From Methylacidiphilum kamchatkense Kam1 (GTDB lineage: Bacteria; Verrucomicrobiota; Verrucomicrobiia; Methylacidiphilales; Methylacidiphilaceae): a stretch of DNA of 64,000 nucleotides. Shown here piece after piece: positions 42,545 to 54,347 of this stretch. The position numbers and the translations under genes are program-made. The stretch covers positions 1,364,001 through 1,428,000 of the forward strand of contig NZ_CP037899.1 in the NCBI RefSeq assembly GCF_007475525.1, in the 5' to 3' direction. The number at the start of each line of letters is the position of its first letter. The first letter of the stretch is position 1. Under the pieces are notes generated by a model, which saw nothing but the letters and a program-made list of their open reading frames with translations, did no database searches and was not told the origin of the DNA.

Positions 42545-44391
42545 TGAAGAATGCAACCCACCCAACAACGCATCGACTCAAGAAGCTTTCTTTTATACCT
42601 GCTCTTTTTGATTCCTTTGCCATTTATAAGCGTACGTTGCCTTATTATCAACCTTTCTTTCCCAAACTCCTTCTCTGCGCATTTTTGATTATTCTTTCTG
42701 TGGGGCTAAATATCCTAAGACCTTGGCCAGTGAAATGGCTCATTGACGATGTGCTGCTAAAAACCATCAATCACCTCCCCCATGGTTATAGTCAGAATCT
42801 TATGACCACAGCTTTTATTGGCTGTGCAACCTTATTTCTGATCTATTTGATCCATAGCCAATTAACCCTTCTAATCAATTCTTTACTCTATCGCATAGGG
42901 CTATCAGCACTTCTGAAATTAAGAACTGATACTTTCTCCTTCCTTCAATATCTTCCATTACGTTTCCATGAATCAACCAAAAGTGGAGACATAGTTTATC
43001 GAATTGCCTATGATAGCCAATCAATACTGACCATGTTGATTAGGGGATTTAGCACTATCTTTAGTTCTTCCCTCCTGCTCATTGGCACCTTAGTGGTGAT
43101 GCTGAAGCTTAATCTATATCTAGCCACAACCGCCCTGGGAATTGCTCCTTTGTTATGGGCAATTATCTCAGCCAATACCGCTAACATCAGGAAAAAAAGT
43201 ACCCGAGTCCAAGAACAGGAAAGCAATCTTTTGGCAGAGACCTCAGAAAGAATTTCTTCAATGCGGTTGATTCAAGCTTTCTCTAAAGAAGAAGAATCGA
43301 TAGCATCTTTTGAAAAAGCAGCTTGGAACAGTCTGAACGCCAACTTTGAATACCTGCAGACTAGTAATCTCTCTTCCCTTCTTATAACAATGACCACAGC
43401 CTTCGGAACAGCCCTGATACTTTTCATAGGGACGAATGAAGTCTGGAAAGGAAGATTATCTATTGGGCAATTATGGATTTTTCTAAGTTATCTGGCTTCC
43501 TTATATCAACCGATGGAACAGCTCAGTTACACGTCTTGGGCTTTGGAAAGTGCCACAAGTAGTATGAAAAGAATTTTCGAGCTCTTTGAGATTCCTAATG
43601 AAGTTTCAGAGCCTTCTAATGGAATCGTTTTGAAGGCTCCACAAGGTAAAATAGAATTTAGAAACGTCTCTTTCGGGTATCACCCAGGAAAGCCTGTTCT
43701 CAAAAATATAAGTTTCACTATCAATCCCGGAGAACGCGTTGCTATTGTAGGTCCCACAGGATCCGGAAAAACAACCATTCTTTCCTTACTCTGTAGGTTT
43801 TATGATCCAATCGAAGGTGCTATCACTATCGACGGCATCGACCTACGAAGCATCACCAAAAAATCATTACGCCAACATATTTCTCTCGTCTTACAAGATA
43901 CTATTCTATTCAATACGACCGTCGAAAAAAATATCAAATTCGGGAAAGAGGGAGCCAGTCACGATGAAATCATCGAAGCAGCAAAAGAAGCTTCCGTCGA
44001 TTCGTTTATTAGCCAACTGCCTAAAGGATATGATACGATTGTAGGAGAAAAAGGGGCACTTCTCAGCGGGGGACAAAGACAACGAATAGGTTTAGCCAGA
44101 GCTTTCTTAAGAAATTCTCCAATCCTTCTTTTGGACGAACCAACCAGCTCCTTAGATTTAAAAACGGAACTAGAACTGATGTCTTCCTTACTGCACCTGA
44201 TGAAGAATAAGACTACCCTTTTCGTTACCCATAGGCTCCACATCATCCATTCTTGGGAACGTATTCTTGTGATAGTAGATGGGAAAATCTGCGAAGAAGG
44301 AAGCGGTAAAGAACTATTAGACAAAAAAGGGGTCTTCTATCACCTATGGAAAGCAGGCAATTTTTTCTCACCTTCTACTGAACCTCTTTGA
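42544..44391 (+). CDS. ABC exporter half-transporter (fused membrane and ATPase domains)
   Basis: A 615-residue MsbA-like protein. The first ~340 residues have six membrane segments; the ATPase has Walker A GPTGSGKTT, signature LSGGQRQR, Walker B ILLLDEPTSSLD and H-loop FVTHRLH. As a homodimer it should export a lipid-linked sugar or other amphiphile. Its start overlaps the stop of the glycosidase-glycosyltransferase gene by one base, linking the two. Its last 17 bp overlap the end of the convergent regulator gene. Confidence 0.9.
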   Translation: MKNATHPTTHRLKKLSFIPALFDSFAIYKRTLPYYQPFFPKLLLCAFLIILSVGLNILRPWPVKWLIDDVLLKTINHLPHGYSQNLMTTAFIGCATLFLIYLIHSQLTLLINSLLYRIGLSALLKLRTDTFSFLQYLPLRFHESTKSGDIVYRIAYDSQSILTMLIRGFSTIFSSSLLLIGTLVVMLKLNLYLATTALGIAPLLWAIISANTANIRKKSTRVQEQESNLLAETSERISSMRLIQAFSKEEESIASFEKAAWNSLNANFEYLQTSNLSSLLITMTTAFGTALILFIGTNEVWKGRLSIGQLWIFLSYLASLYQPMEQLSYTSWALESATSSMKRIFELFEIPNEVSEPSNGIVLKAPQGKIEFRNVSFGYHPGKPVLKNISFTINPGERVAIVGPTGSGKTTILSLLCRFYDPIEGAITIDGIDLRSITKKSLRQHISLVLQDTILFNTTVEKNIKFGKEGASHDEIIEAAKEASVDSFISQLPKGYDTIVGEKGALLSGGQRQRIGLARAFLRNSPILLLDEPTSSLDLKTELELMSSLLHLMKNKTTLFVTHRLHIIHSWERILVIVDGKICEEGSGKELLDKKGVFYHLWKAGNFFSPSTEPL

Positions 44392-45523
44392 CTATTTCCC
44401 CTAAAGCCTCAAAACTATAACCAGGTAATAAGGCTAAATCATTTTTAAGATCCCCAGATTTGAGAAAATCCAGAAATTTTTCTACCGCAGGCTGCAAAAT
44501 TAAATCATGAGGGATAGCTAACCAAAACTCCATCTCATAAAGCGGAACAAAATCCAAGGAAGTGATCTCCGCACAAGCCCTCGAACTTAATCCAACATCG
44601 GCAAATCCATACCCAACAGCCTTGGCAACATCCAAAGCAGTAGGTAGCTCGATGCGATATCCGTTAATTTGATCTGGTTGGATCTCTGCCTTGTTTAGCA
44701 AGCTATCAAGCAATATTCGGGTTCCAGAGCCATCTTCTCTATTGACAAACCGGACATTTTTTCGGAGGAGATCTTCTATTTGTCGTATTCTCAATGGATT
44801 GCCAGGTTTCACCACGAACCCTTCTTCCCATTTACTAAAAGCGAAAATCAAGCCTCCTGTTTTGGCCAATGCTTCGGTACCACTTGCGATATTGTTTTTT
44901 GGATGCTCTTTCGGAAAATGGAAACCACCAACATGAGCAAATCCCAACTGTAGAGAACTTAGGGCTTTAAGACTTGGTTGTCTGAACCACCATAGCTTAA
45001 AGTCAGAATACCTAGCAAGACGATTAGAGAGCATTCCAAGAGCAGGATCACACCCAACCAAAAAAATTTGTTTTTCTATTTCTGAATAGGGGCAAAGAAG
45101 CCTGAGTTGTCGACAATTCCCTTCAGAACGTACTCGAAAAGCATTCGCTTCAACATACCCAAGATTTAAGTCTAGACTGGTAGAAGGCCATGCAATCTTC
45201 TTTCCTCTCACCTCTCCCACAACCAATCTTTCTGGGCTTTTTTCAGTGTGTGTATTTTGCTGATCCATCCCAACAATACAATCGACATCTACAAAATCCG
45301 GGCTATAAGGAAAAAGAAACTCGACACTTTTTCCTAAAACCCGAGCCAACCTAAGAGCAACGGCCGTATTAGGTACATAGCGCCCACTTTCCATCGCATG
45401 AATGGTTTGGCGACTTACCCCAATTTTGGAAGCAAGTTCCTTTTGGGATAGGCCTTTGCCAATCCTTGTCAACCGAAGAGGATTATTTATGAGAGAATCT
45501 TTTAAAGCCATCTTTCTATGCAT
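44375..45523 (-). CDS. XRE helix-turn-helix regulator with periplasmic-binding-protein-like sensor
   Basis: Residues 15-72 form an XRE DNA-binding domain (GLSQKELASKIGVSRQTIHAMESGRYVPN). The rest is a PBP_like domain similar to those of molybdate- or tungstate-type binding proteins: RFVNREDGSGTRILLDSLL and AVGYGFADVGLSSRA. One expects a ligand-controlled repressor or activator in the cytosol. 382 aa; ATG codons at 45523 and 45511 are both possible. It starts 16 bp after ftsZ ends and could be read through from the division cluster. Ligand and targets unknown. Confidence 0.85.
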   Translation of the reverse strand: MHRKMALKDSLINNPLRLTRIGKGLSQKELASKIGVSRQTIHAMESGRYVPNTAVALRLARVLGKSVEFLFPYSPDFVDVDCIVGMDQQNTHTEKSPERLVVGEVRGKKIAWPSTSLDLNLGYVEANAFRVRSEGNCRQLRLLCPYSEIEKQIFLVGCDPALGMLSNRLARYSDFKLWWFRQPSLKALSSLQLGFAHVGGFHFPKEHPKNNIASGTEALAKTGGLIFAFSKWEEGFVVKPGNPLRIRQIEDLLRKNVRFVNREDGSGTRILLDSLLNKAEIQPDQINGYRIELPTALDVAKAVGYGFADVGLSSRACAEITSLDFVPLYEMEFWLAIPHDLILQPAVEKFLDFLKSGDLKNDLALLPGYSFEALGEIVKEVQ

Positions 45524-45539: not shown

Positions 45540-46652
45540 TCAAATTTTAATAGAGATCCCTTTTCTTAAAAAAGCAGGCAGATCCAAATTAACGCCTTTA
45601 TGGATCGTTTTATAGCCTTTGGTAAAAATACCAGTAGAAATACTCTCTTTTTGAAGGCCATCGGCAGGTTGTGTAGAGCTTTTATCATCCGCAAGGTCGG
45701 CATCGATCCTTTCGAGTTGTTTGTCTACCTCTCTTTCAATAAACTTTTCTCCAGCCGCATTACCAATAAGAACAAACCCCTCCTCTCCAGCACCCATATC
45801 TTCTCGAATAATACTCATATAGAAACGGTCGAACAAGCTTTCTTCGGCCTGAAAAAGGCTTCGTAGGTCTTCCTCAGCTTTCGGAGGAGAAAGAAAAAAA
45901 CAAACCCAGGCCACCTTCCTATTCTGTTCTGAAGCGGCATCCTTAGCTGGCTGCAAATAAGGTTGTATCGTATCTGGTAGTTTCTCTACCCCTCGTAAGG
46001 AAAAACTATAAAAGTCTTCGACAAAGAGAAGGGAAGGGAAATTGATGCTATCAAAAGGAGCTTCTTCTGTAGCCGCTTGGGTTAAGTGGTACCAACAGGA
46101 AATGATAGAGCTTACTTTTTTATTGAGATTTCTATACACCCGAAGGGGATCATCTGCTGGACCAAAAACTCCCTTTGCTTTTTCGTTAGAGAAAAAAATG
46201 AACTGATGAGGAAACTCTAAAAGTTCTTGCACGGTTTTTCTTGCTGTGTCTCGACGCAAAAAGGCCTCAGAATGAAACGGAAGAAAAGCTATAGCACTGA
46301 GAGTCTTGACTCTTTCGCTGGCTTTTCTAGAAAAGAATCGGAGCCCTGCGCTGCCCATTGCTCCTCCAAGCCCAGATAAAACTAATAAATGCTCACAGTC
46401 CTCCAACATCTGTTCAATTCTCGGTTCTTCTTCCTCGAAAATCTTCGATGCCAATTCCAAATCCCCACATGATCCTAACCCCTTTGTCGCCTCTTTGCCA
46501 AGTAGTATTCTTCTTTCTGCAAGGCTTGCTTCTACACTGGAAAAATCAGCATCCAAGGCATAAAAGTGGCCACGAGGCTCTTCCGCCAAGATCCATTCGT
46601 CCAGTAAATTAATCCCCGCTCCTCCTATCCCAACAACGACATTTTTCGTCAA
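45540..46652 (-). CDS. ftsZ: Highly divergent FtsZ (tubulin-like) protein, GTPase motifs degenerate
   Basis: Identified by position (right after ftsA) and by the C-terminal peptide DLPAFLRK (357-364), near-identical to the conserved FtsZ tail that binds FtsA. The N-terminus KNVVVGIGGAGINLL fits the first nucleotide loop. The tubulin signature GGGTGTG is changed to GGAMGSA (96-102), and the T7 loop that should read N-x-D-x-x-D is INFPSL (203-208) with no aspartate, so polymer-stimulated GTP hydrolysis looks lost or altered. Divergent FtsZ is known in Verrucomicrobia, but here the changes hit catalytic positions. 370 aa, cytosolic; only FtsZ candidate in the window. Confidence 0.85.
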   Translation of the reverse strand: MTKNVVVGIGGAGINLLDEWILAEEPRGHFYALDADFSSVEASLAERRILLGKEATKGLGSCGDLELASKIFEEEEPRIEQMLEDCEHLLVLSGLGGAMGSAGLRFFSRKASERVKTLSAIAFLPFHSEAFLRRDTARKTVQELLEFPHQFIFFSNEKAKGVFGPADDPLRVYRNLNKKVSSIISCWYHLTQAATEEAPFDSINFPSLLFVEDFYSFSLRGVEKLPDTIQPYLQPAKDAASEQNRKVAWVCFFLSPPKAEEDLRSLFQAEESLFDRFYMSIIREDMGAGEEGFVLIGNAAGEKFIEREVDKQLERIDADLADDKSSTQPADGLQKESISTGIFTKGYKTIHKGVNLDLPAFLRKGISIKI

Positions 46653-46689: not shown

Positions 46690-47928
46690 TTAATTTAAAA
46701 ATTTGATATTTCCTAAAAATCGCAAGAGTGAAGAACGCATTTTTCCAAGCGGTCCTTCCTTTAGACTCTCCATTTCGAATATCCGTCCATATCTGAGTAA
46801 GCCTAAAACGGTATACAGATCCGGTCTATTGAGATAGGATTGATCCCCTTCAAAAGGCAGCGGTTCGGCTAATTTCACAGGATAGCCAAAGATTTTTTGA
46901 GCTAGCTCTTCTACTCCATCGATCTTGCTTCCGCCGCCAGTCAAGTAGATGGTCCCTGTAAAATGAGGCCAAAATGATTGCATTTCGAGATCCTCTTTGA
47001 TAATCTCAAAAATTTCTTCTTGCCGGGCTCTCATAATTTTTACAATGGCATTATAAGGCACCAATCTTTCTTCGGGAAGGGGATGATTGCTTGTTGTCAG
47101 TCTCTTTTTTATGGATTCCGAGCCTAACTTAAAAGAACCAAAATGTTTCTTTATTTCTTCTGCTTGAGGAAATGGAATTCTTAAGGCTAGAGCTAAATCA
47201 TTGGTTAAATGATCTTGCCCTACCCCGATCACTCCAGAGTGAACGATAATGCCTCCGTGATACACGATATAGTCGGTTAGCCCTGCTCCTAGGTCAATAA
47301 CAATTGCTCCATGCATTTTCTGACTCCGTGTGAGCACCGCTTGAGCTGTTGCAAAGATACTCAGACAGTAATTGCGAATATCAATAGAAAGCTCTTTTAC
47401 GCACCGGACAGTCGTTTGAAGCCTCGTAGCAATGCCTGAAATGAGATGATACTCCGCTGTCAACTTCTTTGAAAAAAGACCAATAGGATTTTCCGTCAGT
47501 GTGCCATCGTCTAAAGAATAGGTTTTCAATAGGTCATGTAGAAGGATTTGTCCCGTCGGCAAGGCCTGCTGTCTGACCAGAGACCTAAGTTCCATTAAGT
47601 GCTTTTGGTCGATGCGATCTCCTTCTTCTCCAAGGCTGATAACCACTTTAGAATTGAAAGATCGGATATGGGCTCCACTAATGGCCAGATAGACTTCTTC
47701 GATCGCTACATTGGTTTTTGCTTCAGCTTCTACTATAGCATCATGTACCGATTTTTGAGCTAGCTCAAAATCGACGATTTCCCCCTTTCTAACATTGAGC
47801 GAAGGGCTCTCCGCAATCCCCAATAAGTAGAGCTCGCCCTCTTCCCTTAGTTCAGCCACCGAACAAGCTATTTTGCTTGTCCCTATTTCAAGCCCAACAA
47901 GAATTGGCCATTCTTTCTTCCAAAACAT
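46690..47928 (-). CDS. ftsA: Cell division protein FtsA
   Basis: Actin-like ATPase that anchors FtsZ to the membrane. Visible are the phosphate-1 loop VGLEIGTSKIACSV, the SHS2/1C region (EVYLAISGAHIRSFNSKV), phosphate-2 IVIDLGAGLTDY, and adenosine-binding IYLTGGGSKIDGVEELAQ. The C-terminal amphipathic helix is represented by MRSSLLRFLGNIKFLN. Length 412 aa is typical. Located 37 bp upstream of ftsZ. Confidence 0.93.
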   Translation of the reverse strand: MFWKKEWPILVGLEIGTSKIACSVAELREEGELYLLGIAESPSLNVRKGEIVDFELAQKSVHDAIVEAEAKTNVAIEEVYLAISGAHIRSFNSKVVISLGEEGDRIDQKHLMELRSLVRQQALPTGQILLHDLLKTYSLDDGTLTENPIGLFSKKLTAEYHLISGIATRLQTTVRCVKELSIDIRNYCLSIFATAQAVLTRSQKMHGAIVIDLGAGLTDYIVYHGGIIVHSGVIGVGQDHLTNDLALALRIPFPQAEEIKKHFGSFKLGSESIKKRLTTSNHPLPEERLVPYNAIVKIMRARQEEIFEIIKEDLEMQSFWPHFTGTIYLTGGGSKIDGVEELAQKIFGYPVKLAEPLPFEGDQSYLNRPDLYTVLGLLRYGRIFEMESLKEGPLGKMRSSLLRFLGNIKFLN

Positions 47929-47958: not shown

Positions 47959-48828
47959 TTACTGAAAGATTACTGGTACATTTTGCTCTGGAGTTAGATC
48001 GACCATGGAGATTTTACGGCCATGGCTCTGAGAAAAAGAATAAATTTTTTGCAGCCTTTGTACCTGTTCATTCAAATGATCGATCCGGAAGGTAAGCCGG
48101 ACTCCATCTCTTGTAAGGAGACCAATAGAAAGTGGCCTTGACACATCGATAGTTTGAGGATCAAAGGCGAAGTGTAAAGAAGAATTTTCTAATATATGAA
48201 GCAAATTAAGGGCAGCAGAAACCTCCGGTTCTTCTATTCTTTTTTTCCCTTCAATCAATTTCAAAGGAACCCCCACCATTTCTGGCAAAGAAAGAAGATC
48301 CTCCCTGTTTTCTGTTACAAATGGATAGCCTTTTTCATCAAGACAATACTTCCTATTCTCTTTGGATTTCACTGCCAATCTCACAACAGGTTTTCTTTCC
48401 CAAATCCTTATTAGGATGCGATCGGGAAGTTCCCTCCGGACAAGGGCTTTATCTACTTCTTGAATGGAAGAAACTTTCGAATAGATATCCTTCAACGACA
48501 GGTTAAAGATATTATCTCCAACATGCACATTTGAAGCACGGAGAACCTCGTCTTTTGTGAGGCGTCCGCTCCCGATAAGCTCAACGTTGATGTGTTTAAG
48601 CTGATAGCCGTAACGCGCTAATAGATTGTTTTTAAAATAATTCCAGCTTTTAAATCCTCCGAAAGTCACAATCACAAACATTCCGATATATAACAACGAT
48701 TTTAATAAAAGAGAAAATTTGATCCCTTTTTTAGGCACTCTTTCTTTGCCTTCGACGTGCAAAAGCTCCATTGGAGCTTTCTTGAGTCGATTCTTTTTTC
48801 TCTTTCTTGGCCTGTTCTTTACCTTCAT
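47959..48828 (-). CDS. ftsQ: Cell division protein FtsQ
   Basis: Single-span inner-membrane protein of the FtsQLB complex. A basic N-terminus precedes a membrane helix (SLLLKSLLYIGMFVIVTFGGF, residues 44-64 or so), a POTRA domain (INVELIGSGRLTKDEVLRASNVHVGDNIFNLSLKDI), and the FtsQ domain (LPDRILIRIWERKPVVRLAVK). Length 289 aa is normal. Sits between ddl and ftsA, as in most dcw clusters. Confidence 0.9.
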   Translation of the reverse strand: MKVKNRPRKRKKNRLKKAPMELLHVEGKERVPKKGIKFSLLLKSLLYIGMFVIVTFGGFKSWNYFKNNLLARYGYQLKHINVELIGSGRLTKDEVLRASNVHVGDNIFNLSLKDIYSKVSSIQEVDKALVRRELPDRILIRIWERKPVVRLAVKSKENRKYCLDEKGYPFVTENREDLLSLPEMVGVPLKLIEGKKRIEEPEVSAALNLLHILENSSLHFAFDPQTIDVSRPLSIGLLTRDGVRLTFRIDHLNEQVQRLQKIYSFSQSHGRKISMVDLTPEQNVPVIFQ

Positions 48829-53167: not shown

Positions 53168-54347
53168 TTAGAGACTGATAGAGCGCTGCGCCCCTTTCTC
53201 TTCTATTTTGATGCGAAATTCTGGAGGCCTTTGTCGATGAATGTTCAATAGCACACCTACGGACATAAGGCAAAAAACAAGATTCGATCCTCCATAACTA
53301 ATGAAGGGCAAAGGAAAGCCTTTATTCGGAAGCAAGCCAGTTACGACGCCTAAATTTGCTAGTGTCTGCATGCCTATCAAGGAGGTAAGGCTTGTACCAA
53401 TCATCAACCCCTCTTTATCCGGAGCAAAAAGAGAAATCCATCCAGCGGTTAAAATAAAACTTAGATAAAGCCCAACGATAAGCAGGGTTGCCCAAAGACC
53501 CAGTTCTTCACCAATAATAGGAAAAATAAAATCGGTAGTCGACTCTGGCAAATAAAACATCTTCTGACGACTATTTCCTAATCCAAGTCCACTGATCCCC
53601 CAGAACCTAAAGCGATCAAGGACTGCCAAACCTGATAAGACTTCCCTTCTTTATCTTGATCCATCGCCAAAAAAGCCAAAAGTCTAGATCTTCTTTCTGG
53701 CATTAACAAAGCAATGACAAGCACGATAAGGATACCCGAGCCTAAGATAGGAAGGATCCATTTCAAGGAAATACCCCCAAGTATAAAAAAAGGACAAAAA
53801 CCATAAAGTAGAGAAGACTCGATCCAAGGTCTCCAGAAACTATTAAAAGACTAACAAAAAGTCCCACCGTCACAAAAGCCGTAAAAAAGGGAGACATAAA
53901 AAAAGGGCCTGTCTTTTTGGCATTCGACAGGATGTGAGCAAAAAAAAGGGAGATAAAAATTTTTGAAAATTCTGAAGGCTCTACATTGAATCCACCTATG
54001 GAAATCCATCGAGAAGAACCATGAACCTTATGGCCAATTCCAGGAACAAAACAGAGAATGAGAAGAAAAAAGCCAAGGATCAAAAGCCAAATGGACAGTT
54101 GTAGGAGTTTGTGATAATCGATCAGACTAAAAACCAAGCAGCTAAAGAGCCCAATAGCAATCCAAAGGAATTGGCGCAACATTAAACTAGAAATCTGACT
54201 TTCTTTTTCCAATACAAATTTCCCGGAAGCACTAAAGAGGGCTACAATGCCAATAGAGAGTAAAGTTAAAGCAATGGCGACTAGCAAATACCCAGAAAAT
54301 TGATTGATTTTCTTTGTCTTTTGGTGAAACAGATCTAATTCTTGCAT
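53168..54347 (-). CDS. ftsW: Peptidoglycan polymerase FtsW, broken by two frameshifts
   Basis: SEDS-family glycosyltransferase of the divisome, here in three frames. Frame 1 (54347-53763) covers the first six or so helices with GHKVHGSSRWISIGGFNVEPSEFSK; frame 2 (53766-53578) has RLLAFLAMD, then SYQVWQSLIALGSGG; frame 3 (53629-53168) has GLGLGNSRQKMFYLPESTTDFIFPIIGEELG and GFPLPFISYGGSNL. One extra G in each of two G5 runs (plus-strand C5 at 53774-53778 and 53597-53601) gives a continuous, normal FtsW of about 393 aa. As the gene is essential, both breaks are probably assembly errors. Confidence 0.93.

Follow-up and report, generated by a model that had tools for sequence, protein, structure and literature searches.

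The window analysed here, 64,000 nucleotides of the closed, single-contig genome of the thermoacidophilic methanotroph Methylacidiphilum kamchatkense Kam1 (2,202,032 bp), carries on its minus strand a dcw cluster of which ftsZ is the final gene. Upstream of it come, in turn, ftsA, ftsQ, ddl and a murC-murB fusion (the last two named from sequence and gene order). As originally predicted, ftsZ follows ftsA, the two being 37 bp apart, and its TTG start is directly preceded by aaggaaggg. The features needed below are, in window coordinates:

47959..48828, minus strand: ftsQ, with POTRA and FtsQ/DivIB C-terminal domains
46690..47928, minus strand: ftsA, which exceeds its equivalog cut-off (298 bits)
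45540..46652, minus strand: ftsZ, 370 aa, TTG start, the sole FtsZ of the genome
46347..46367, minus strand: T4 loop GGAMGSA (residues 96-102), GGGTGTG in canonical FtsZ, from alignment
46074..46148, minus strand: helix H7 (residues 169-193), with the kept guanine contacts Y173 and N177, from model and alignment
46032..46073, minus strand: rewritten T7 loop ...PFDSINFPS (residues 194-207), with no H8 after it, from profile alignments and model
45753..46031, minus strand: C-terminal activation domain (residues 208-300), its fold kept in the model, without a Pfam FtsZ C-terminal match
45618..45752, minus strand: C-terminal linker (residues 301-345), where model confidence is mostly low
45561..45590, minus strand: FtsA-binding peptide NLDLPAFLRK (residues 355-364), conserved on comparison with relatives

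Starting 16 bp after ftsZ, on the same strand, is a gene for a 382-aa protein (44375-45523, minus) whose sequence suggests a helix-turn-helix domain joined to a periplasmic-binding-like one. In the same cluster, ftsW (53168-54347, minus) is broken by two frameshifts into three reading frames and is intact in relatives; these are probably PacBio assembly indel errors, and the assembly's own paper suspects an indel in hyhL. Such probable errors could invite the view that ftsZ is itself a sequencing artefact or a pseudogene, but this is barely credible, as its frame is open and its T7 and T4 letters recur in two independently sequenced species, bar one T7 residue in one of them. These matching motifs, together with dN/dS values well below 1, rule out a frameshift artefact in ftsZ.

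Family membership is not evident from every profile. The Kam1 protein scores 80.1 bits against PF00091 (Tubulin/FtsZ GTPase domain; cut-off 33) and only 75.7 bits against NCBIfam TIGR00065, for which the equivalog cut-off is 295.2. However, that cut-off is passed in only 25 of the 289 genomes of the phylum and is thus undiagnostic in Verrucomicrobiota. Two other hallmarks of FtsZ, a place behind ftsQ and ftsA in the dcw cluster and an LD.P.FLR peptide, are both present, the latter as N355-LDLPAFLRK, which bears out the claim that the FtsA-binding tail has been kept. An AlphaFold2 model, built from 29 sequences (pLDDT 77.7), displays the FtsZ architecture of two domains with helix H7 between them; over residues 1-299 it superposes on M. 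tuberculosis FtsZ (VIA Z 27.9, rmsd 2.9, 285 aligned), and Foldseek matches it to B. subtilis FtsZ (E 2.5e-18), although identity to solved FtsZ structures is just 15-19% across the whole fold. Since the model aligns over residues 1-299, the C-terminal domain missed by Pfam is present. A search of the complete Kam1 genome, one of the checks proposed at the outset, found no second canonical ftsZ; the other PF00091 match is sub-threshold and belongs to FtsZ-like 1 (FtsZl1), a separate protein matching PF13809, to which Kam1 FtsZ has no match in Pfam. Together, sequence and model are best explained if the protein is the orthologous, single-copy FtsZ of Methylacidiphilum. It shares with canonical FtsZ (E. 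coli, B. subtilis, S. aureus) the fold, the ftsQ-ftsA-ftsZ order, the guanine and ribose contacts and the FtsA-binding peptide, and differs from it in its T4 loop, in catalytic columns without aspartates and in the absence of H8.

The departure in T4 is as predicted: residues 96-102 read GGAMGSA, where canonical FtsZ has GGGTGTG, and do not match the signature [SAG]GGTG[SAT]G. The Thr to Met change is common to all five Methylacidiphilum genomes and, with a Gly to Cys change in T3 (G71), concerns the phosphate side of the pocket. The rest of the pocket is kept, namely D36 (T2), E129 and R133 (T5/H5), N156 (T6), and Y173 and N177 (H7), N156 and N177 being the guanine contacts and Y173 the stacking residue. 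Guanine, ribose and arginine-finger contacts are thus all preserved by alignment and model, so weak nucleotide binding, which the original prediction had envisaged, is not implied, real as the T3 and T4 changes are.

More drastic changes affect T7. The residues of this loop are said to be conserved between species and necessary for assembly and hydrolysis, and in S. aureus both aspartates hold the catalytic water (PMC8936486). Four profile-profile (hhalign) alignments, of moderate confidence, place N204 and S207 in the columns of E. coli D209 and D212, with F205 matching the conserved F210, and by this alignment Kam1 lacks the D209 and D212 pair of a catalytically competent GTPase. Column assignment in T7 depends on the alignment, however, since a rival 135-row MAFFT alignment equates D201 with D209 and N204 with D212. 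The D212 column of Kam1 is non-acidic under both, whereas the D209 equivalent could be D201. The prediction that both aspartates are missing, and the comparison with verrucomicrobial FtsZ meant to check it, therefore hold for D212 on either alignment and for D209 by the profile alignments, while a conserved Asp at D209 is possible by MAFFT. In the model, helix H7 (169-193) is followed by a low-confidence loop and then by a strand (208-218), with H8 absent, and the spacing to the order-wide ENCW motif fits a deletion at H8; the proposed superposition thus returned an FtsZ fold lacking this helix. The T7 letters of Kam1 are identical in the genome taken as that of M. fumariolicum SolV (G042), and a third Methylacidiphilum genome, G054, differs at one neighbouring residue.

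These data leave room for an ordinary, fast-evolving FtsZ that hydrolyses GTP with rearranged acidic residues, either D201 or, where strand S7 begins, E212/D213, any of which might stand in for the lost aspartates. In its favour, D201, besides falling at D209 in the MAFFT alignment, is invariant in five Methylacidiphilum genomes, the D212 column is Ser in Kam1, SolV and G054 but Glu in G072 and Asp in the genome taken as M. infernorum V4 (G318), and beyond Methylacidiphilaceae nearly all FtsZs of the phylum retain at least one acidic T7 residue. Nevertheless, the profile-profile placement of F205, N204 and S207, the missing H8 and a D212 position that is non-acidic on both readings make such an enzyme unlikely.

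The gene has clearly been evolving rapidly. Kam1 and V4 share 52% identity in FtsZ and 81% in FtsA, and between Kam1 and the other genera of Methylacidiphilaceae the values are 28-32% and 56-59%, respectively. Against SolV and G054, dN/dS is 0.30 and 0.22 for ftsZ (0.20 and 0.14 for the FtsZ N-domain) and 0.05 for ftsA; to judge by these sequences, ftsZ evolves far quicker than ftsA, yet under purifying selection. Accelerated ftsZ evolution is already known, a 2008 paper having stated it for M. infernorum without presenting the data (PMC2474590). The V4 orthologue differs from Kam1 in having Asp aligned at D212, and no residue-level account of its catalysis was found in open-licence papers. 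In the tree, the FtsZs of the family form one clade (support 98/97) that adjoins order members under midpoint rooting; its stems are long and long-branch effects are possible. Loss of D209 may have occurred in the ancestor of the order and loss of D212 later, within Methylacidiphilum, while the pocket would have decayed further in Methylacidimicrobium, whose FtsZ no longer has the guanine contacts of T6 and H7 but still yields an FtsZ fold on modelling (Z 28.1).

How unusual Kam1 is has to be judged against its phylum. By a mechanical tally from the 135-row MAFFT alignment, in which some divergent rows are uncertain, both aspartates are found in 16 of the 54 sampled families outside the order, D209 only in 24 and D212 only in 11, so that exactly one is kept in 35/54; the remainder have Glu (1/54) or neither aspartate (2/54). 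The best-sampled family unambiguously reads LIN-LDFATLRQ where the canonical sequence is LDFADV. Within the order, just one of the eight other families has both aspartates, and 31 of 32 sequences have lost D209. Most genomes of the phylum have one FtsZ, so the proteins tallied are generally sole FtsZs. Verrucomicrobial FtsZs with LDFAT or GLADL in T7 resemble Kam1 in already missing one catalytic aspartate; unlike Kam1, they have an acidic residue left and retain both the T4 motif and H8. No earlier residue-level report of T7 loss in Verrucomicrobiota was found in the open-licence literature. From these alignments Kam1 appears as the extreme of an aspartate loss that occurs in most of the phylum. 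It had been suggested that divergent FtsZ is known in this phylum and that loss of both aspartates would be notable; because loss of one aspartate is usual and that of D209 order-wide, the local novelty narrows to the loss of the remaining D212 and the deletion of H8, which, as far as sequence and model indicate, are what is new in Methylacidiphilum.

Other departures surfaced among the relatives. The FtsZ encoded next to ftsA in G083 (L111:1414-2325), roughly 304 aa long, keeps an NLDVPTFQR tail and appears, from its sequence, to lack the entire C-terminal activation domain. One relative within the order, G308, has two FtsZ genes (L042 and L077). Families f32 and f34 (L118-L120, L122-L128) have a distinct group of uncharacterised tubulin-like proteins whose loop reads GGGTGNG, and four f32 genomes in which it occurs have no TIGR00065 match at E <= 0.001.

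What kind of division protein could this be? The preferred reading, to which we assign a probability of about one half, is that the Kam1 FtsZ is in use for division as an FtsA-tethered, guanine-nucleotide-binding scaffold with very slow or no hydrolysis. The fold, pocket contacts, FtsA peptide, dcw position, purifying selection and status as sole FtsZ, together with the rewritten T7 and lost H8, support it. In this model, the protein would bind GTP, assemble into filaments via its remodelled T7 face and, without treadmilling, recruit FtsA and septal wall synthases, with wall synthesis driving constriction. Precedents come from laboratory mutants. E. coli D212G, in which, as in Kam1, a catalytic T7 aspartate is gone, has <1% GTPase activity and forms static rings (PMC7320174), and although it fails to complement alone, single suppressor mutations let it support division (PMC5405962). 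In S. aureus, a GTPase mutation leaves the constriction rate unchanged (PMC10994846). From D212G, and from the S. aureus mutants D210N and D213N, which also have a catalytic T7 aspartate removed, Kam1 differs in having changes at both sites; these arose by natural evolution, in its only FtsZ, and the T7/H8 region is remodelled besides. For Verrucomicrobium spinosum, ftsZ is an essential gene (PMC12283558). Against a scaffold count the possible stand-in acidic residues, the low confidence of the model in the T7 region and the T3 and T4 changes on the phosphate side of the nucleotide pocket. Moreover, polymerisation of Kam1 FtsZ cannot be assumed, because S. aureus D210N and D213N abolish both assembly and hydrolysis (PMC8936486).

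The failure of these S. aureus mutants to assemble also lends some weight to a different scenario, in which FtsZ has lost useful polymerisation and survives as a vestige or an adaptor, constriction being performed by FtsA filaments, MreB (found in every relative searched), wall synthases or FtsZl1. The loss of guanine contacts in Methylacidimicrobium and the strong conservation of FtsA alongside a divergent FtsZ would fit, and Planctomycetota and Chlamydiota without FtsZ exist (PMC5147048). FtsZl1 is a 1012-aa protein encoded outside the window (L078:848-3886; G000:C1:1491347-1494385, minus) that scores 204 bits against PF13809 and has an intact CGLAGGTGSG loop; the proposed role of its family is membrane remodelling (PMC2875224). 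Like FtsZ it belongs to the tubulin superfamily, in the same genome, but it is far longer, has a predicted coiled-coil organisation, lacks the FtsA peptide and lies outside the dcw cluster. It is found in most Methylacidiphilaceae, the rest of the order being without a match above cut-off, a distribution compatible with a role in place of FtsZ. It is, however, absent from G072 and G008, in which T7 has decayed as well, and this rules it out as an obligatory replacement engine. With purifying selection acting on ftsZ, and with its FtsA peptide and fold kept, a vestigial or adaptor FtsZ is improbable, more so than hydrolysis by rearranged acidic residues.

A wider proposal, drawn from the alignments and models and best regarded as tentative, is that the aspartate pair is broken across most Verrucomicrobiota and gone in Methylacidiphilaceae, where division may depend on an FtsZ scaffold that hydrolyses GTP slowly or not at all. 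In that case, GTP-driven treadmilling would not be a universal need of FtsZ-based division. A sole FtsZ without T7 aspartates, in a phylum where their loss is widespread, offers natural material on the need for FtsZ hydrolysis and treadmilling, and the cultured strains V4 and Kam1, with Asp and Ser in the D212 column, provide a ready natural comparison. Such proteins may also reveal intermediate stages towards the FtsZ-less division of related phyla.
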